A DNA stretch of 64,000 bases from Polymyxa betae (lineage: Eukaryota; Endomyxa; Phytomyxea; Plasmodiophorida; Plasmodiophoridae), in NCBI GenBank assembly GCA_003693705.1, contig RBZT01000419.1:124001-188000 (forward strand), written 5' to 3'. Position 1 is the stretch's first letter. Each line of letters opens with the position of its first letter. Made by a program: the position numbers and the translations under genes. Below the pieces are notes generated by a model. The model saw only the letters and a program-made list of their open reading frames with translations, had not been told where the DNA came from and made no database searches. Shown here in pieces: positions 3,898-29,031 of the stretch.

Positions 3898-5395
3898 ATG
3901 TTGCAGACCCCGGATGGCGACGGTCGCCAAAGCCATCCGGTGCCGTCTAAACGATATAAATATTTTGTTCACAAAACGAAGCATGGTTCGATGCCTGACA
4001 TATGGACGAAACCGGTTGTTCATAGAGCAGATCGGGTCTCCCTTCCCGATGATCCACAGCTGAGGCGTCTGCAAATTATAGTGCGATTTCAGAGCATCGC
4101 TCTCACTCTTCAACGGCATCATTGTCAAAACGGCAGCGATCAGCCGCCATTGCAATTAATGACCGCATTGATGCAGAAAATTCAGGTCCAACGTGATAAC
4201 ATACGACTAAATAGCTATCATTGGGCCAGGAATTTTCGCTTCGCATTGTTCAAATGCATGAACGATTCGAAATCTTCGAGACTGGCAGCTTTCCTCAACA
4301 TAATAGTTTCTGCAGCAACGTATGCTGATATGATAGTTCCATATTTTTGTAAATTTAAAGCTTTTATATTTTAGGTTGATTTCAGTATCTGTAACTTGTG
4401 CTGAAACAGCGATGAACTCAAAGGATGGACTTCTGCTCGCTGAATTAATCTGCACATTGGTGTTCACTTGTGAATTCCTAGCAAGATTTCTCGCCTGTGC
4501 AACATTCAGAGAATTCTTAACCTGGCTGACGTTTATCGATGTCATCACTATTGGGCCATCATATATCGAATTCCTTTTGCCGCTTTTGGTGAGCAAAGCG
4601 TATATTTAGTATTATCTGTTTCAGCTAAGTTGTCAATGCAGATAAAAGACAATCAGATCGTGACATCAGCAGAGTTTCGAGTATTACGTGCCGTTCGAGT
4701 CTTAAGGATTCTTAAGATCGCTCGCCATTTAAGCTGGGTCCCAATGGTAAAAGAAGTGTTCCATGAGTCCTGGTTACCATTGGCTATGATGGGCTTCATC
4801 GTTGGTATCATCCTAGTGGTACTTTCTAGCATAATGTATTTTATCGAAAAAGATACTCCTGATAGGTGATGGTGCACATTGATTTATTTACTTTGTTTTT
4901 AATGATCGCATCTAGTTTGTTCATCAGTATTCCGACATCAATGTACTGGTGTATGATAACCTTAACGACAGTTGGTTATGGAGACATTGTACCTGTAACG
5001 CTGTTAGGGAAATTTTTTGCTGCCTGCACCAGTATTATTGGTATTTTGCTGCTCGCCATTCCCATATCCATTGTCTCCGACTCATTCTCAACATTATATT
5101 CAAGAAGACAGGATTTATGCGCTTTTGTCGAGACGTAAGGAACTCCCATCTCATGTTGTCAATTTGGTTCAGTCTATTCAGATATCGGAGGAGGAACGAG
5201 TCTGTCCAAAGACACATTTCTCACGAAGATAGGCTAGAATGGGTTATCCATATCGCTCATGAGATGACATCGTTCTCTGTCATCCACAAAATGAATCAGC
5301 AGATGCAACTAGATGATGTCGACGCCGACATCAGCATCCGGAAATTCTTTGCTAAATCTTTGGCCGAGGATGGCGATTTGGTTGTTACCAGATAA
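3898..5395 (+). CDS. Voltage-gated potassium channel, Kv type
   Basis: Six-transmembrane voltage-gated K+ channel subunit in four or five exons. The N-terminus (ATG 3898) is cytosolic and lacks an obvious T1 domain. S1 lies near 4290-4350, S2 and S3 in the exon 4376-4590, and S4 in the exon from 4622 as RVLRAVRVLRILKIARH, with regularly spaced Arg/Lys. S5 follows. After an intron at about 4868-4917 comes the pore, with MITLTTVGYGDIVPVT carrying the canonical K+ filter TVGYGD, then S6 with LLAIPISI (a PxP-like bend). A last intron (about 5136-5180) joins a C-terminal tail ending at TAA 5393-5395. All splice phases used keep the frame. Seen: filter, S4 and S6. Inferred: homotetramer at the plasma or flagellar membrane. 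It is clearly distinct from the tandem CNG channel at 11.3 kb, whose filter is altered. Confidence 0.92.
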
Positions 5396-10278: not shown

Positions 10279-11266
10279 GTAACAGATAGATAAATATGAT
10301 GGATAGATTGCAGGTCAGCGAGTAATTTCTGGCCTTTCTAATCAATTATTTCTGATTGTGATTCAATAAATAACGGCCAGATTAGAACTTGAAGATTAGT
10401 TTATGAAATGATGGGTCTGACTCTGTCGGGTCTAACTAACAACCACGGTCCCTTGGTCGGGCTCTTTCTCCGCACTTCTTTTTCAAACAATCTTGCTTCA
10501 AGACAGCTATTTAGTTCTTATATTGATTATTTGCAATGTCAAGATCGTATTGAGATGCGCGTCTGTTGGTGAATCATGCTCGTATTGAGATGTGTTCTTT
10601 TTGGCGAATCATGCTGCCAAGGTCTCATGTAAAATATGAATTGTCACTTTACGCTATTATGCTAAAGTTATTCATTAATAATGATTCATGGAGTTAGTCG
10701 TGATATCCGTTTCTGTCAACGTCAATAAAATGTGACTTCATCTTCTTCTTTCTCGTTGTACAAAGTGATAAACACTGACCTTGCCTTACGAATCGAAGAT
10801 CAGGTAATTGATGAGTTCGGTTTAGATTGTCTACATTCTTCGTTCTTAGTAGCGGTTTGACTCTGTCTCTCAGCAAGGATGGCCTTGCGGGCGAATAGCT
10901 AGACATTCCCCAAAATTGATGGTTGGATCAGGAATGGTACCTGTTAGTGAACTATTACGTTGTAATACTTACCATATTGACAGAACGATTGTCCATCTGT
11001 AAGCTCATTCTTTACATGCAATTCACATAGAAGTAACAACTACTGACCATATTTGAAACCATACCCATTCTGCGACAAATGGATGATCACCGTCCAAATT
11101 CAAAGAGATCGAGCAGCAGCCGGTATAAAGTTGATCAAGGTCCAAATTGCTGGGCCATCTGTCACCCCATACATGATTGCTGATATTGCTGTTTATAGCA
11201 TCATCATCAAGTGCTACACAACATGATGGTGATTTAGGTGGTAGTGATGGTAATGAACCTGTTATA
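10279..11266. other. Intergenic region upstream of the tandem channel
   Basis: About 1 kb between the divergent DnaJ-X and channel genes, one of the longer gaps in the window. No open frame has coding character. It contains a 35-bp imperfect direct repeat at 10545-10614, annotated separately. The true channel start could lie in the last 100 bases, because the frame leading to ATG 11267 is open upstream of it without an in-frame ATG, so a short 5' exon is possible. Confidence 0.5.
10545..10614. repeat. 35-bp imperfect tandem direct repeat
   Basis: Two adjacent copies, 10545-10579 and 10580-10614, each beginning TCGTATTGAGATG and ending GAATCATGC, with differences in the middle. The position between two divergent genes would suit a regulatory element, but nothing in the sequence proves it. 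Confidence 0.6.
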
Positions 11267-14200
11267 ATGATACCACAACCTGATGAGAGTATCTCTGATA
11301 CTGATAATGTAAGTCCAACTGATAACATTCGATTAAAGACAGTCTCAATATTGTATTAGTCGAGCAAGAGAGCACCAGGCTCTGGTAATAGACAGCAAAT
11401 TTTAAGTCGTTCTAGCAGTGATGGAGATCTCCTTCATGACTTACCTAATCGTCCCGATACAAATGATGATTCACCAATGCCAAAACGCAAGAAGCCCAAG
11501 GTTATTGAACTATCTGTTTGTTTATGTAACCAGACACCTAGAACATATTTTGTAGGGAGCTACAACTGAGCTATCTAAGAAGGAGCTGGCTTTGAGAAAG
11601 AAGAAAAGCAAGAAGAATCCCCAGATTCAACGTCGTGATTCACTTGATCTATTAGATCCTGAGGTTGATGTTATACCTGGTATGACAGAAGCTGAAGCTA
11701 CTGCTAATAGATCTGGAGGTATTACTATCATCTGTAACATGATATATATGTAGTAATATGTTACATTAGATTGGGTTATTGACCCAGATTCACCATTTGT
11801 TACATATTGGTTAGCAATCGTCTATATCATTACTGTCTATAATGTCGTTGTTATTCCCTTCCGAATGTCATTCGGGTCAGTACGCTTCCGAGTAGTTTCG
11901 AGCAAATGCCAATTTTGTGTGGCAGATTGTTGAATAATACCATCGGATTCTGGTTCTTATTCGATTTATTCACGGATCTGTTCTTTCTTGCTGATATCTA
12001 CATCCATCATCATCTAGGTGTCTATGTTAAAGGCAGGAAAGTTCTTAATCTGAAGACCATTGCTGCACGATATCGATCTAGTTGGGGCCTGCCCATTGAT
12101 ATATGTGCTTCAATGCCCTTGGATCTTATTCAGGTTCTCAATTATATGAGCATCTCCGTCAGATCTTTGTACTAACATATACTCCCTCGATTATTACAGA
12201 TTCCAGCACGACAAATATTACCAGCAGCTAGATTACCACGATTACTTCGAGCTATTCACATTTTGGGTCTGTTGCCAAGCTGATATTTTTCGCTTTTTTG
12301 TCTGTTACAAATTTCGGATCGCACTTCTAATATTATTACGTTGCATGGAAAGGCGCTGATTGTACAATCTGTCGTTACAGAAGTAATTAATTCGATTGAG
12401 AATCAGCCCGGTGTTAATATCGTTTATGTTCGACTGATAAAACTGGCCATGTTCACTATGTTCATTAATCATTTCGCTGCCTGTGCTTGGTATGCTTCAG
12501 GTCAGATCTCAGCTATTCACTATAATAGTGATATTCGGGACTAAAATTCTACCACATCTCTTTAGGATATGGACTGGGATCTTTTGGATCCTGGATGTTA
12601 TCAAAATCAATCCAGGATTTGACTACAATTCAGCAATATATTCGTGCTGTATATTGGGCTATGACTCAGATGATAGGCCGTGGCATTGCTTACCCACTAG
12701 CACAAACTGAATATGAGGTATCAAACACATAATTATCACAATAATGTCTTCCTGCCTTGTTTCGGGGTTGTTTAGGTTTTAGGGTTTTCGGGTCCGATTT
12801 ATATAGAAATTGACTCATATATGTTGATTTAGTCGTTCCTGGTTTTATTCTACATCATAATATCAGCTCTATTTTATATATATGTTATGGCTGTAGCCAT
12901 ATCATTAGTTGAGAGCTCCAATACAGTCCAATCTGGATTTCAGGTGACGCTCAAATCATTAGGTTTACAAATAGCCATTAACTGCTTGTTTATCGTGTAG
13001 ACCCATGTCCGATACATCATGACATTTCTACGTGATCAGGGTCTGCCTACCCAACTACAACAAGCTCTTCAGGAATATTTCTCTTATGTTTGGCAATCGC
13101 AGCGTGGTAATGATGCCCGCGCCGTCATGCAACTATTACCATCATCGATATCTCAGGATATTCAGGTGATATTGGATGGCAGGCTGGTGATATCTTATAA
13201 CTAATGCTCGTAGATGTTCTTGGTTAAGGGGATTGTTATACGATGTCGAATGTTTAGCCAGATAGATCAATCTGCTCTAATTGCTGTTGTTAATATGTTA
13301 ATACCACGTGTATGTGCACCTGGTGAATATATTGTACATGCAGGTCACTAATCTTATTACTGCTCTTCTACTTCTATCTGTTAATACTCATGTCTATTTT
13401 TTAGGGATTCTGCAAGCATCCATGTTCTTTATTCAACAAGGAGAGCTGGAAGTATTAAGTACTAAATATAGAAAATCTGGAGAGCCAAGTATTGAGCAGG
13501 TACCTATTTGATGACATCGTAAACCCTAACTGATCTTATATAGGTGATTAGTTCATTAGTAACAGGTGATGCATTTGGTGAGATGCAAGTGTTTCTTGAG
13601 ATTCCAGCACCAACATCAATACGTGCCAAGACGTTCTGTCAGCTGTATGAATTCAATCGAGATCATCTTAAGACCTTAATCGATGTATATCCTGCTGATG
13701 CTCAACTACGTATGTTTATATATACAGGGAGCAGTACTCCCCATCTCATTTTATCTAACTGTCAATTACAGTTGTCAAGACGGCCAAGCAGATGCGAAAT
13801 CTAACTGATGACGACGAAAGTACACATCCGACTGCCAGCGTGACAACCGTTAAGAAACAGACTCCTACCACACCGACTAGCGCCGGTGTATGTTAATTCA
13901 TGCTATTAAAACACATATCTAACTGGTATATTAGGCAGGACGTAAAGATGATGGAACTATGGCTGGTACACCTGTATGGGCACATGACGATAATAGTGCT
14001 GTTAAAGATGATGACGATGATCTTGAGAAAGGTTTACATAGAATGGGATCTTCACCTTCTGCCAGGTATCTCTTCTCCATTCCATCTTGCAATTCATGTT
14101 TTCTCTTTGTCTGCATTCTGTGCCATGTACTGTTTCCTGCAAGCAACGTTATTATAACATGATCAATACAGGAAGCCATCTGATGCTACCACATCGCAAT

Positions 14201-17200
14201 ATGTTGGTAGCCGTAAAAGTAGCCAATCATCACGTAGATCAGTGTTACTTCTGAATACATCAGGTATTAGTGTGGATCTGTCTCTGATCTTTATTTCTAT
14301 CGTTATTCATAACTGAATTCAAACAGGGGATGAACTAGCAGCTCACTTTGTTACTAACTGGGAGCGCTGCCTCATTCTGGTCGTACTCTACGACTTTATA
14401 GTTATACCAATACGTGCTGGTGTGTTACCTTTAACAAAGCAGAACTCGTGGCCTTATCTACTATGTGATGCGATTGCTGACACATTCCTACTAGCAGATA
14501 TTGTACTCAGGTATCGGTATGCGGTTCAGTTCACAGGTAACATTACCAACAACAATGCACACTTGTACTGGCTGATGGGTAGTATCATAGATAAACCGCT
14601 GCTTGGTAAAGATCGATCAATAGATTTAATGACAGTGGCCCGATCACGTTATATACGTCGTTATCTGCCTATATATGGACTTTCATCATTCCCTCTAGAT
14701 TGGACTTTAGTATCTGTTGTTAGCTCTGGCATTCATCTCAATCTCATACTACGTCTTGTTCGATTCTTTCGTCTAGGTATGCTTATGCTATATACAGAGA
14801 TATTACCATTGTCATGTTCATGTTGTATGCAGGGACTGTACAGGAGATTTTATTCCGAAATCAACGCAATCTGAAATCTAATGCTAGGCTAATGTTTATA
14901 TCAACCTTATTACAGTTTGGATTAATATCACATGTACTTATCATATTACATATGTCAACATATGGATCAACATCTAATTCTTTCACTCTAAACTATACCA
15001 ACTCTCTCATACTTATGATTAACTCATTAACCGGTCTAGGACGTACTGGACTAGAACCTATCACTGAGTCACAAATGGTAACTAGACCCCTTACGTTACT
15101 ACTGCTCGAACATATTCGCTGGTTGTAACATTTGCATTATAGGTGACAGCGATATTAACATATCTATGTGGTGTATGGATGATGGCTATGTGTATTGGAT
15201 CATTAGCAGCATATATTACAGAACGTAATTCACTGGAAGGTCGCTTCTCACGTAACATGATCGCCGCACAGCGTTTCCTCGACTTTTGCAATGCTCCGGA
15301 AGTAATATAAAGGCATTTATATCTGTCAGACGTTACATCTCTAATACCTCTCAGGATATACAAGCACGTACCCGGGTATATTTTGAATCAATGTGGTCGA
15401 CAATGCGAGGTGTTGTTCCACAAGAAGCCCTGTCTGCGTTACCGTCTTCGTTACGGACCAAGATCATGATCGAGCTATGTCGTAACGTGATCAAGAACAT
15501 GCCCATATTCCAAGGTGTTTCACATAGATTTGTATATGATTTGGTTCCGAATCTCGAATATGAAGTGAGCTCTCCATTCGTTGGTAACATCACTGGGTAA
15601 CATTTCTATAACAGGTATTCCCAGCTGGTGAATACATATTTAGACGTGGTCAGATGCAGAATGGCAAAATGTACTTTGTTACACGAGGTGTATTATCTAT
15701 CATTTTGGATGAGACTATATCTACAAAACCCTTCAAGGTTCGCGCTTATATCTTTGTTGCCGTTTTCCATCGTATCAACCGAATATATAACTCAATCAGG
15801 TGATCGGAACCGGGTCGTTCTTTGGTGAGTGTGCGCTTCTAACGAACTCACAATTACGTCGGTCTTCAATTAAGACCGAGACATCTTGCCATTTGTTATC
15901 AATTATACGACCACGTTTAATGCAGATGTTTACGTAGGAATGTTAGGGTTTAGGGTTTTAAAGATTTAACTTTCATGATAGACTGTATCCAGTGTTCGGC
16001 GACCGAATGCGAGCTATGGCTGCTCAACGTGTCAAACGTCTGGATAAGACCCAGCAGAATATGCAGCAAATCTTACAAGAGGTGACAATAACAGCTGGAA
16101 ATACTGGCCCAATCAGTTTTCCAATAATGCTGCTGTGGTCAGGTTATGGCAAAAATTGAGGAGTCAAAACTGATCGCCAACCGGACCTATAACTTTATTA
16201 TGTATGAGGCATGCTTTGTTGGAAATGAACTCGTCAATTGGATCATCACCAAGGGTAAAACAGCATAAACCGCAACGATTTGTCACCCTTAAGCAATTGT
16301 TTCAGGTTATGCAGATAATCGTGAAGATGCCATGGCAATATGTGTGGCGCTTCTCGAAAAAGGTCTTCCCAATTATAACCTGAGACCGAATTTTTTTATG
16401 GTTTTTGTGTTGTTGAGTATTGGGCAACGGTATGGACATGTTGATTGAGATTATCTAGGGATGATAAGGTCAGTGGAACATGGCCATGAGGCCAACGACG
16501 AGGAGCCAGAACGTTTTATCGACGGTCTACATTTCTATCGTCTGGGCGCCTATGTCGATAAGATCGCCGTTAATGATCTGATTCTGATCCATCTTAGCCA
16601 AATGGTACATGAAGACACAGACCTGATCACTGACCTCAGACATCGTCTCGTTGCCGACCGCTCCTTTCAGGTATAGGCATCCCCCTTCAGATGATTCAGC
16701 CCTTGATCATCGCATTTATGTATACTTAATACTTAACTCACTATTCTGGTTGCAATTAGATGGAAGCCAATTTGATAAGCGCCCGTGCTCTCATGCATTT
16801 CCTGTTGAATACAAGCAATGTAGCAGCGGATCCCATTGAAATGGCAAACGCTGAATCTCGAGCCGAACAACTGGCTCAACGCCTGATTGACGCCAGCGTC
16901 CTGCAGAACATCAATCATTTTGAACGTTTTGAAAACAATGGCGCCGATTTCTATCGTTTACGTGCGTTGAATCCATCTGATCCACAGAATTCCGGTGGGG
17001 GCGATTTCTGGTCCAGTCCATTCTATCAAGCTGATGGAACTTTTTGATACAGGACCGGCAGCGACAGCGGTTATGCTGAGTGGGAAGACGCCGGCTTTCA
17101 GCGGGACTTTGCTCATTCGATCCACATACACGTTCTTGACGTATTTCGGGATCATCTCTACCAGCTATCCATCTACTATCTATCTGTATGCCTCAAAGCG

Positions 17201-17675
17201 TTCCGACCGTCCGGTTAGGATTCTGCAGACCAATTCCAGGAATATTACAGTTTCCAGAATAGAATTTTCTAATGCCGAACCCAAGTGAGCCTCGTGGTAA
17301 TCGAAAAGATTGAAATCTGACTTAGTGGGTAGATTAAGCTGTATACATCTATCTGTGGTGGAGGCGCCCGAGAAAAACATGATTGTATCGACTGATAAAC
17401 GTTGTGAGCGCGACCTGGTGTTCTGTTTTGATCGACAGAATACGTACCAATCGCTGTTGGAGATTTTGAAGGCGCAGGGATACACACAGAAGATTCGAGC
17501 ATTGTTGGCCACACCGTGGTCTACTGCCAGGGTCTCCAAATCATGATAGACGATATATATCGGGCAGATCCTAGACGCATACAATCCAGTAGCCAGCTTC
17601 AACCAATCTGGTCCAGAACATTCTACAGAACAACGGGATAATTCAGAGCCATTGCATAAATGTGCCTATTCATAG
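11267..17675 (+). CDS. Two-module cyclic-nucleotide-gated cation channel with DEP-DEP-PH tail
   Basis: One frame of roughly 1,600 residues runs through more than 20 short introns. Order: acidic/basic N-terminus; module 1 with S1 (about 11795), S2-S3 (11930-12140), S4 (ARLPRLLRAIHI, 12225), S5 (12440), pore (MTQMIGRGIAYPLAQTEYE, 12660), S6 (12840), C-linker and CNB domain (13230-13730); a hydrophilic linker of about 130 residues (13770-14330); module 2 with S1 (14360), S4 (LRLVRFFRLG, 14750), pore (INSLTGLGRTGLEPITESQ, 15025), S6 and CNB domain to about 15960; then DEP 1 (16140-16600), DEP 2 (16600-16970) and a PH domain (17040-17510). Stop TAG 17673-17675. The four linker introns each keep the frame, which is the main evidence for one polypeptide. 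CNGK channels of sperm carry four such repeats; two repeats plus this tail match no family known to me. The exact 5' end is uncertain. Confidence 0.85.
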
Positions 17676-26173: not shown

Positions 26174-26710
26174 TGCTTTTAATGTCTGAAGAAATTTGCG
26201 AATACTGCACAAAGGACTTGAAACCTACGCAATAATTAACAGTATAAACTCGACTGTCGACTCCATATCCCTATCTTACTGTACAAGGAATCATTCTATT
26301 ACAATTTGCAAGCGATCAGACTAGTGTTAGTGCTGGAATTTTATCTTTTGAGAATCTCTTTTGCAAAGTGCAGTAGGTGCCAGAATCAATGCGTTTTATC
26401 AAAAGCAGATCGTTGCCATCAATCTTGACTAAGAAATCAGAGCTAGCAGTTAGCACCAGCAGTAATATGAAAATTGGAGAAGTTTCAACCTCACAAGTGA
26501 TGTCCTGGAATGAATTCGTTCCGACTTGTCTGCTGAATTATTCGGCCAGTGTTACTCTATCTAACGTTCAGGCATTTTTAAATGCTCGTACTTGCAATTG
26601 CTCTCCCAAATAGTCGTTAGAAATCTATTACTCTATTCAAGTCTATTCAGTGTAAAGTTGGATCAATCTACGATCAAATCGCTCTACAGTCGTCACAGAA
26701 TCTTGGATTC
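26174..26710. other. Gap between divergent YIPF5 and CFAP52
   Basis: Presumed shared promoter region. A plus-strand open stretch at 26377-26613 (78 codons, Ser-rich) has no recognisable motif and no good splice link into CFAP52, so it is not called. No X-box-like site for ciliary gene control was convincingly seen. Confidence 0.4.
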
Positions 26711-29031
26711 ATGTCTTCGCTGGAGTTATCAGCTGTTATCGGATTCGCTGGTGATGTTAATTCTGGTCTACTATTACAAGATGATGACGAGCATTTGATC
26801 TATCCTTTGGGCTCTAATGTTGTCATTAAGAATCTCCTAAAGAATACTCAGAGATTCTTAAACAAAGATGGACATGATCATGCTGTATCATGCTTATCAA
26901 TGTCACATGATGGCACAATGTTAGCTACAGGACAGATAACACATATGGGATTTCCAGCTGTAGCAATAATATGGCATCTACCTACTGGTCATATTCGTCA
27001 GAAATTATCTCTTCATAAGGGGAAAATTCAAGCCTTGGCATTCTCTCATGATGATCGATATTTGGCCACATTGGGTGGTGAAGATGATAACAAATTAGTA
27101 ATCTGGTCTGTTGAGACTGGAGATCCAGGCAAGTTTCTCTCATTCTGTTCTCAATAATCGTTAATGATTATTGAGAAATAGTTTGTGGTGCACCTGCTTC
27201 CAATGATACAGCTCTAAGCGTGAAATTTTTCAATACTCAGCTACGCTTAATCACAGCTGGCAAATATAATCTTCGAATATGGGATTTCGATCTGGCTAAT
27301 AGAAAAATTCGCCCAACTGATTGTCGTCTTGGGTCCATTAAGCGAGTAGCCAATGTAGTTCAGATCGATGCAAGTGATCAGTTTATTTATGTCGGGACAA
27401 GCTCTGGAGATTTACTTCGCGTTAATGTTAAAGTATAATGCAATTATCATGAATGCAGGTTTCTGGTGTGCTCATTGTTTATACTGTAGGCACATCTGTT
27501 TAAAGATGCAGGACCGAGAAAGAAACCAATGGCTAATGGAATCCGAATTGTAACTCTTATTGATAATGGTGATGTTCTAATTGGTGCTGGAGATGGTACT
27601 GTTGCTTTATTACGTGCGTCTGATCTATCAATTATAAGATCACATCAATTTGATGGAGCTATATCCAGTATCACATTGAACAAAGCTCGTGTATAATATT
27701 CTAATCATTATGGTTGGGATAGATCTAATCTATGGTTTAGGATCATTTCTTTGTTGGAACTACAAAGTCAAATATCCATCTAGTTCATTTACAATCGTTT
27801 GATAATGAGCTACGTTCAACATGTCATTTCGGTCGAATTAATGATGTCTGCTTTCCAGATGGATATTCCGAGTTATTCGTCACAGTATGGATTTCGTATT
27901 TTACACGAAAATAATTCCTGAACAGCCTGCAGGCATCTGTTAATGATATTCGTGTATGGAATGCTCGACTTCGAAATGAATTATTACGAATTCATATCAA
28001 AGGATTAGAATCACTCTGTGTCACATTAACTAGAGATGGGAAATCAATTATCAGTGGATGGAATGATGGGAAGATTCGGGCATTCCGACCTCAATCAGGA
28101 AAGTTAATGTATATTATTCATGATGCACATGAAGATGGTGTAACTGCTATTACAACAACAAGTGATGGTAAACGTATTATTAGTGGTGGTGGTGATGGTC
28201 GTGTTCGTGTATGGGCCATTGGTATATCATAATATTATTTACTTAATCATTACTCAATCATAATATCAGGTGAACATAGACATGTAATGGTTGCAAGTCT
28301 TAAAGAGCATAAAGCTAAAGTAACATTCATACGAGTTAAGAGCGATGATACTGAATGTGTATCATCGTCCTTTGATGGTTCATGCATTGTTTGGGATTTA
28401 GTTAGCTATTTACGTCTTAATGCCATGTTTGCATCAACACAGTTTAATGCAATTATTTACCATCCTGATGATAGTCAGTTGTTAACAACCGGAACTGACA
28501 GAAAGGTTTTTAGAAGTTTTCACTCAATGATTTGTGCTGACTTTAATATATGAAGATTACTTATTGGGATGCCGTTGATGGTAATGCTATTCGGATTGTA
28601 GATGGCTCAAACGCAGGCGAAATTACCTCATTGGATGTCTCTGCTGATGGAGAGATGTTCATTACAGGCAGTGCTGATAAACTTGTTAAGGTTATTTATT
28701 ACATGCTATTGCCAATTTAATTCAACTGAATACTGTCTAGCTATGGGGATATGATGAAGGACATTGCTACTTTTATGGTCTTGGCCATAGTGGTGCTATT
28801 AAACGTGTTGCTATTTCACCTGATCAGAAATCTATTGTTTCTGTTGGAGAAGAAGGTGCTGTCTTCGTCTGGAATATGCCAGCTGCAGGATTCTTGAAGA
28901 TTCCGACCCTTGAAGGATTATCAAATCCAACAGCTGTTGAATCACTGACTTCTAAGCAAATTCCTAAATCTGCTCAATCAGCTCCAGGTGCTACTACTGC
29001 TGCTACTGCTCTCCATCCTACTCATTTATAA
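26711..29031 (+). CDS. CFAP52: Cilia- and flagella-associated protein 52 (WD40)
   Basis: Axonemal WD-repeat protein (WDR16); in motile cilia it is a microtubule inner protein of the doublets. ATG 26711 is followed by EHLIYPLGSNVVIKNLL, which matches the CFAP52 start. WD repeats then run the full length: SLHKGKIQALAFSHDDRYL, FDLANRKIRPTDCRLGS, SIISGWNDGKIRAFRPQSG and GVTAITTTSDGKRIISGGG are family-specific, followed by CVSSSFDGSCIVWDLV and LLTTGTDRK. The gene has about eight short introns. It ends with a Ser/Thr/Ala-rich tail and TAA 29029-29031. It is nearly full length for the family (about 600 residues). Presence of this gene is good evidence that the organism has motile flagella. Confidence 0.95.

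Follow-up and report, generated by a model that had tools for sequence, protein, structure and literature searches.

Does a single gene of the plasmodiophorid Polymyxa betae encode two complete cyclic nucleotide-gated channel modules in one chain, and if so, how would such a protein work? The question is raised by a stretch of 64,000 nucleotides of the P. betae genome (assembly GCA_003693705.1, contig RBZT01000419.1, positions 124,001 to 188,000 of the forward strand), hereafter the window, to whose first letter positions refer unless another contig is named. A reading made from the sequence alone had placed in it one gene with two sets of transmembrane segments S1-S6, C-linker and cyclic-nucleotide-binding domain (CNBD). 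A two-repeat CNBD-channel is in itself not new, since such proteins were first reported in dinoflagellates and oomycetes (Pozdnyakov et al., 2020; PMC7576140; statements from the papers cited by PubMed Central (PMC) number refer to excerpts of them). What is new here is the absence of the K+-selective signature TVG(Y/F)G from both repeats, an asymmetry between the two CNBDs in the phosphate-binding arginine, a DEP-containing C-terminus, and a second two-repeat gene. The first three of these had gone unremarked in the sequence-only reading.

One predicted polypeptide with two channel repeats

The gene was modelled by hand as 30 exons encoding 1536 residues. Its two modules were found where the sequence-only reading had them (Table 1), and the span 11267-17675 given there was corrected to a coding region at 11079-17546 on the plus strand. 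All 29 introns, 44-115 bp long, are GT-AG, and the G+C content is 42.4% in exons versus 36.7% in introns. The earlier claim of a linker with four frame-keeping introns was borne out, the frame being kept across all four of them (13710-13771, 13888-13934, 14066-14171 and 14264-14326). Retention of any single intron, those of the linker included, leads to a frameshift or a stop: 11 of the 29 have a length divisible by three, every one of these 11 has a stop inside, and none could be retained harmlessly. The least secure part of the model is exon 1, where the Plasmodiophora brassicae counterpart has about 43 extra residues at its start.

This counterpart, P0001 (1538 residues), carries most of the argument. 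When residues 158-1500 were searched against 5.8 billion proteins, two proteins among 4970 candidates were matched: P0001, with 52% identity over 100% of the query, and P0002 (1000 residues), with 22% identity over 30% of the query and GYG in both filters. The full P0001 alignment runs from an N-terminal ATTELSKKE motif to the C-terminus, and residues 985-1290 of P0001 used as query returned P0001 as the sole match among 1673 candidates. Because P0001 matches end to end, the two modules are not mis-joined neighbours, and the single-gene reading does not depend on our splice model alone, with the proviso that P0001 may be a predicted gene model too. A single polypeptide with two S1-S6, C-linker and CNBD repeats, rather than neighbouring paralogues, is thereby confirmed as the predicted product. 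Sixteen of the 25 places in the P. betae genome that match P0001 lie within the window gene, the best one elsewhere being at C500 (26% identity), and the DEP-bearing two-repeat gene looks single-copy in its own genome. The source name of the P0001 record contains the word "(mitochondrion)", probably a labelling slip given a longest contig of 1.68 Mb.

Pfam profiles matched the spliced product with 99.3 bits for cNMP_binding (cut-off 27.5), 71.1 bits for Ion_trans (cut-off 25) and 61.6 bits for DEP, also above cut-off; bit scores are for the whole protein, and the first two families each gave two matched stretches at a setting of E<=1. Two-pore channels have two six-transmembrane (6TM) repeats without a CNBD, and the two cNMP_binding stretches set the present protein apart from them. 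Compared with solved CNG, HCN, KCNH and SthK channels, module 1 alone is closest to CNGA1 (E=3e-40) and module 2 alone to SthK (E=1e-36), followed by HCN4 (4e-33); the modules are 21% identical to each other. Each S4 carries three arginines spaced three apart (274/277/280 in module 1, 854/857/860 in module 2), which are invariant in comparison to P. brassicae.

Selectivity filters without the K+ signature

The filter region of module 1 reads YWAMTQMIGRGIAYP (YWAMTNMTGRGVEYP in P. brassicae) and that of module 2 NSLTGLGRTGLEP (NALTGLGRSTRMP in P. brassicae). In sequence alignment, TVG(Y/F)G is absent from both repeats of the window gene and of P0001, and an arginine stands in the filter region of both repeats and is kept in P. 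brassicae. Module 2 aligns with SthK across the pore without a gap, which places its arginine at the tyrosine of GYG. The loop of module 1, by our own count from YW to the outer proline, is two residues shorter than that of SthK. An arginine exactly at the GYG tyrosine is true of module 2 and not of both repeats, but TVG(Y/F)G is lost from the module 1 sequence whatever the exact register.

Filters could also be read at some of 20 other fetched loci of the genome (L012-L031), by pattern and by eye and with the limit that some of these loci may not be CNBD channels. Nine were readable. Seven are GYG or GFG, namely those of L012 (two units), L013, L014, L018, L019 and L021, the last read across a presumed intron; two are of CNG type and lie in channel-like exons, SVGKN in L020 (C353, SVGKNLEP) and TIGTN in L025 (C483, TIGTNIFP). 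The latter two rule out the idea that all other CNBD channels of the genome keep GYG. The two channel units of L012 (C425:195500-202500, minus strand), each with TLTTVGYGD, are about 2.3 kb apart and were taken as two adjacent genes.

A second two-repeat gene

Contig C255 carries another two-repeat gene (L011, 201000-208500, minus strand), which has 17 GT-AG introns and encodes 1060 residues. Its P. brassicae counterpart P0003 (1152 residues) was the best of 12 matches among 8000 candidates scored, with 41% identity over 99% of the query. The filter regions are MFNESTIAMP and RLGPTIRP in P. betae, and MFSQAETPQP and RIGSLAAP in P0003. Over the two genes in the two species, TVG(Y/F)G is therefore found in none of eight repeats, a natural case of K+ filter loss in every repeat. 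The six-frame, exon-by-exon genome search gave no DEP match on C255 at E<=0.001.

Asymmetric cyclic-nucleotide-binding domains

The arginine of the R-T/S-A motif has been described as crucial for cyclic-nucleotide binding (PMC4749565). This phosphate-binding arginine is missing from module 1 and present in module 2, in P. betae and P. brassicae alike, and the same holds for the C255 gene and P0003; counted over both genes and both species, it occurs in 0/4 first repeats and 4/4 second repeats. The FGE motif is retained in all eight CNBDs, so that the combination of FGE and phosphate-binding arginine typical of CNG channels is found in module 2 only. As judged from sequence, a two-repeat gene with altered filters and CNBD asymmetry is present twice in both species. 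A precedent is sea-urchin CNGK, in which a single CNBD, the third, is functional (PMC4749565).

The DEP region and the C-terminus

The first DEP domain is clear (Table 1). A profile of the two C-termini (A3), from P. betae and P. brassicae, matched DEPTOR best (1.1e-16), then P-Rex1 (5.7e-15), each in two stretches, and also a cAMP-dependent Rap1 exchange factor (1.3e-6). Because of these paired stretches, the 110 residues after DEP 1 are probably a second DEP domain; this piece alone gives a weak match. The final 140 or so residues are conserved with respect to P0001 and have no Pfam match above cut-off. At E<=0.001, DEP matches in the genome fell on two contigs, three on C152 and one on the window contig, C409.

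EPAC pairs a CNBD with DEP, and DEPTOR and P-Rex carry tandem DEPs; their DEP domains are as here, but they are not channels and have no S1-S6. Among the open-licence PMC papers listed, no precedent for a CNBD channel bearing DEP was found by title or abstract start.

Repeat history and conservation

Three trees were built from 15, 12 and 14 module rows, which came from the two P. betae two-repeat genes, C500, and 8 proteins out of the 14 that had been returned; the second was made without P0011, P0012 and module 1 of P0002, the third without P0011 and P0012. The clades described below are those of the plasmodiophorid two-repeat genes, and all three trees contain long branches. The four second repeats formed one clade in all three trees (support 97/94, 98/95 and 98/96). 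The four first repeats did so in two (80/79 and 80/87); in one tree this clade was absent but not rejected (approximately unbiased (AU) test, p=0.345). Most simply, the two genes would go back to the duplication of an entire two-repeat protein, an account for which support is weak on the repeat-1 side. A recent duplication of one module within the gene was rejected: the two modules are 21% identical, and constraining both modules of the window gene and of P0001 to group with one another gave AU p=0.0007 in the first tree and p=0.0024 in the second. The repeats of P0002 lie outside the plasmodiophorid repeats in the best third tree, but the AU test did not firmly reject a grouping of the two (p=0.050 and 0.089).

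Module 1 is conserved throughout, with 55-70% identity to P. brassicae (S1-S4 85/122, S5-P-S6 57/104, P-loop 15/26, C-linker plus CNBD 116/188). In module 2 the membrane segments reach 37-40% (S1-S4 44/118, S5-P-S6 36/90, with 10/25 in the P-loop), whereas its C-linker and CNBD (130/181) and DEP 1 (51/73) reach 70-72%. The remaining regions gave 48/111 (DEP 2 region), 62/138 (C-terminal domain), 30/85 (linker) and 53/150 (N-terminal region). For the C255 gene and P0003 the counts were 65/126, 49/101 and 64/181 in module 1 and 37/113, 38/101 and 88/176 in module 2 (S1-S4, S5-P-S6 and C-linker plus CNBD, respectively). As a rough control, from a different family and at a different divergence, an insect CNGB was compared with two fish CNGB1-type channels, and here the profile was even: 39/45%, 46/42% and 44/45% for the same three parts. 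Module 2 looks as if it were held for the gating ring, the ligand site and DEP, and less for the membrane part.

A possible mechanism and its rivals

What could such a protein do? The reading that we would place first, tentatively and at not quite an even chance, is that of a non-K+-selective two-repeat subunit which contributes two of four pore loops, is gated through CNBD 2, and is anchored or coupled by DEP. Since four pore loops line one pore in this channel superfamily (PMC7576140), the pore would be expected to be made of two chains, or of one chain with partner subunits. We infer a dimer of two-repeat subunits as the natural arrangement, as had the sequence-only reading; because the filters are altered, it is a real alternative that the protein needs a partner or does not conduct. 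Cyclic nucleotide would bind to the second-repeat CNBDs, at diagonal positions in a dimer, and binding would move the shared C-linker ring, while the first-repeat CNBDs would have a structural role, like those of KCNH channels. The filter would not be K+-selective, and its arginines might lower cation affinity by analogy with the basic residues near animal CNGB filters. The DEP region would anchor the protein at the membrane or couple it to a partner, and gating would be by ligand more than by voltage. Fusion of repeats lets once-identical subunit positions evolve separately, and the division between CNBD 1 and CNBD 2 in two genes and two species would amount to a natural two-ligand, diagonal design, which makes the number and place of channel-opening ligands testable.

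Several points weigh against this reading. The filter register of module 1 is uncertain, and the CNGA1 alignment sets its arginine one place before the conserved glycine. The poorly conserved membrane segments of module 2 argue against a tightly constrained repeat-2 pore, a doubt that follows from the S5-P-S6 and P-loop counts given above when set against the even CNGB profile. Finally, an AlphaFold model made from nine sequences, in which the two CNBDs are the best-predicted parts (mean predicted local distance difference test (pLDDT) 55 and predicted template modelling score (pTM) 0.32 for the model), is too poor to inform assembly, and it is a model of the counterpart P0003 and not of the window protein.

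The protein might instead be a non-conducting cyclic-nucleotide sensor, in which the channel scaffold would have been kept for its gating ring and as a membrane anchor, with filters that no longer work and an output via DEP to a cytosolic partner. We hold this to be unlikely, though it deserves to be weighed seriously: the K+ signature is gone from every repeat of both genes in both species, the filter letters of the C255 gene differ between species (NES vs SQAE; GPT vs GSL), and the fast membrane segments of module 2 stand beside a held CNBD 2 and DEP 1, a contrast not seen in the insect-fish CNGB comparison. However, each repeat of the DEP-bearing gene has kept its filter arginine in a pair of proteins that are 52% identical, the membrane segments of module 1 are well conserved, and animal CNG filters conduct without GYG. 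Moreover, the second gene has equally altered filters and no DEP match, so an output through DEP would not be common to both genes. A related and equally doubtful proposal would be a plasmodiophorid pseudo-channel receptor with no K+ pore, perhaps non-conducting, in which nucleotide is read by CNBD 2 alone and passed on via DEP; if true, each of the four loops in a dimer would have an arginine at its filter region.

Slightly less probable still, in our estimate, is an obligate heteromer, in which the window protein would be a beta-like subunit that assembles with the second two-repeat protein, giving four different repeats per pore, or with single-repeat subunits of CNG type. Both two-repeat genes occur in both P. 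betae and P. brassicae, and in all three trees the second repeats of the two group in a single clade. CNGA4, CNGB1 and CNGB3 form no functional homomers, and animal CNGA4 and CNGB need partners (PMC10761061). Non-K+ filters also occur outside the two-repeat genes. Single-repeat partners of CNG type may exist, and the products of L020 and L025, with SVGKN and TIGTN, are possible partner subunits. On the other hand, the two two-repeat genes lie on different contigs (C409 and C255).

The weakest explanation, that the splice model or the assembly mis-joined two adjacent paralogous genes, or that module 2 is made separately from an internal start, can draw on the hand-made gene model, a weakly conserved linker (18 gaps in the alignment), in-frame linker methionine codons at 606, 646 and 674, and a single ATTAAA at 13905 inside intron 15, but it is very improbable given that P0001 aligns end to end, linker too, that the pattern recurs in the second gene and its counterpart, and that no intron can be retained harmlessly, the ortholog and the intron-retention test together ruling out mis-joined neighbouring genes.

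Comparison with known channels

To the tentatively favoured two-repeat subunit, the closest known design is that of the published two-repeat CNBD-channels, which likewise have two 6TM-C-linker-CNBD repeats per chain and first and second repeats that have diverged. Unlike here, these have TVGYG or close variants and S4s rich in R/K (PMC7576140); the present protein has two altered filters, three conserved arginines per S4 and a fused DEP. The same paper describes tandem Kv-like channels from dinoflagellates, oomycetes and a chlorarachniophyte, tandem CNBD-channels from the first two alone and, in the excerpted text, no tandem channels in other groups of the stramenopile-alveolate-rhizarian (SAR) assemblage; Plasmodiophora and Rhizaria go unmentioned in that main text. 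Our findings extend two-repeat CNBD-channels to P. betae and P. brassicae and add the DEP fusion. No paper on these Plasmodiophora channel proteins was found by title or abstract start among the open-licence PMC papers listed.

The sequence-only reading had also proposed an intermediate design between one-repeat channels and the four-repeat sperm channels, CNGK. As a repeat count this stands, and CNGK too has CNBD-channel repeats joined in one chain. As an original design it does not, given the published two-repeat channels, and CNGK has four repeats with GYG/GFG filters (PMC4749565), which the P. betae protein lacks. We found nothing in favour of the latter as an evolutionary step toward CNGK, in a comparison made without a confirmed set of CNGK sequences.

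Animal CNG channels, CNGB and CNGA4 especially, resemble the window protein in that CNGA1 is the closest solved match of module 1 and in that their filters are non-GYG. They differ in having a single repeat and filters of GET, GGL (P0006) or GKN, compared with GRG and GLGR here, and we know of no DEP domain in them. A further likeness lies in the basic residues near the filter of CNGB, where GKN occurs in the insect protein P0005: in CNGB3 and CNGB1 a basic pore-helix residue projects to the filter entrance and is described as lowering the electronegativity of the filter (PMC10761061). SthK and HCN, the closest solved relatives of module 2, share its canonical CNBD and differ by their GYG filters and single repeat.

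Feature map and neighbouring sequences

Table 1. Features of the two-repeat gene, with positions in the window.
Feature	Position	Strand	Basis
Whole coding region, 30 exons, 1536 residues	11079..17546	+	Splice model, P0001 ortholog
N-terminal region, residues 1-157; start of exon 1 uncertain	11079..11769	+	53/150 aligned residues identical to P0001
Module 1 S1-S6, C-linker, CNBD 1, residues 159-598	11770..13709	+	Pfam, CNGA1 match
Filter region of module 1, MIGRGIAYP (MTGRGVEYP in P. brassicae)	12670..12696	+	Alignment to CNGA1, P0001
Module 1 phosphate-binding cassette, FGE present, phosphate Arg missing	13574..13630	+	Sequence comparison
Inter-module linker, four in-frame introns	13710..14326	+	Splice model, intron-retention test
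Module 2 S1-S6, C-linker, CNBD 2, residues 723-1161	14359..16009	+	Pfam, SthK match
Filter region of module 2, LTGLGRTGLEP (LTGLGRSTRMP in P. brassicae)	15027..15059	+	Ungapped against SthK TTIGYGD; P0001
Module 2 phosphate-binding cassette, canonical FGE...RRSS	15821..15880	+	Sequence comparison
DEP domain 1, residues 1196-1270	16173..16544	+	Pfam E=6.9e-17; DEPTOR match
Probable second DEP, residues 1275-1385	16557..16978	+	Pfam E=0.06 alone; profile stretches to DEPTOR, P-Rex
C-terminal domain of unknown kind, residues ~1395-1536	17053..17546	+	62/138 identical to P0001

Two introns of the gene contain a telomere-like TTTAGGGTTTT motif, intron 9 at 12771-12791 and intron 23 at 15942-15959. 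No other exact copies occur in the window, in which 0.04 would be expected, and near copies were checked as well. Exact triple TTTAGGG was found at C290 143-170, near the contig start, and at C406 15832.

About 6 kb upstream of the two-repeat gene lies a Kv-like channel: Ion_trans matches of another gene occur at about 4364-5111 on the plus strand (C409:128364-129111), with TTVGYGDIVP near 4970. Downstream, at about 26710-29030 on the plus strand, is a WD-repeat gene that by eye resembles the flagellar CFAP52 and would presumably suit flagellate stages. Elsewhere in the genome, runs of four to five cNMP_binding matches within 2-4 kb occur at C352:33430-35317, C401:22723-26395 and C255:164275-166113, and these perhaps represent multi-CNBD proteins.

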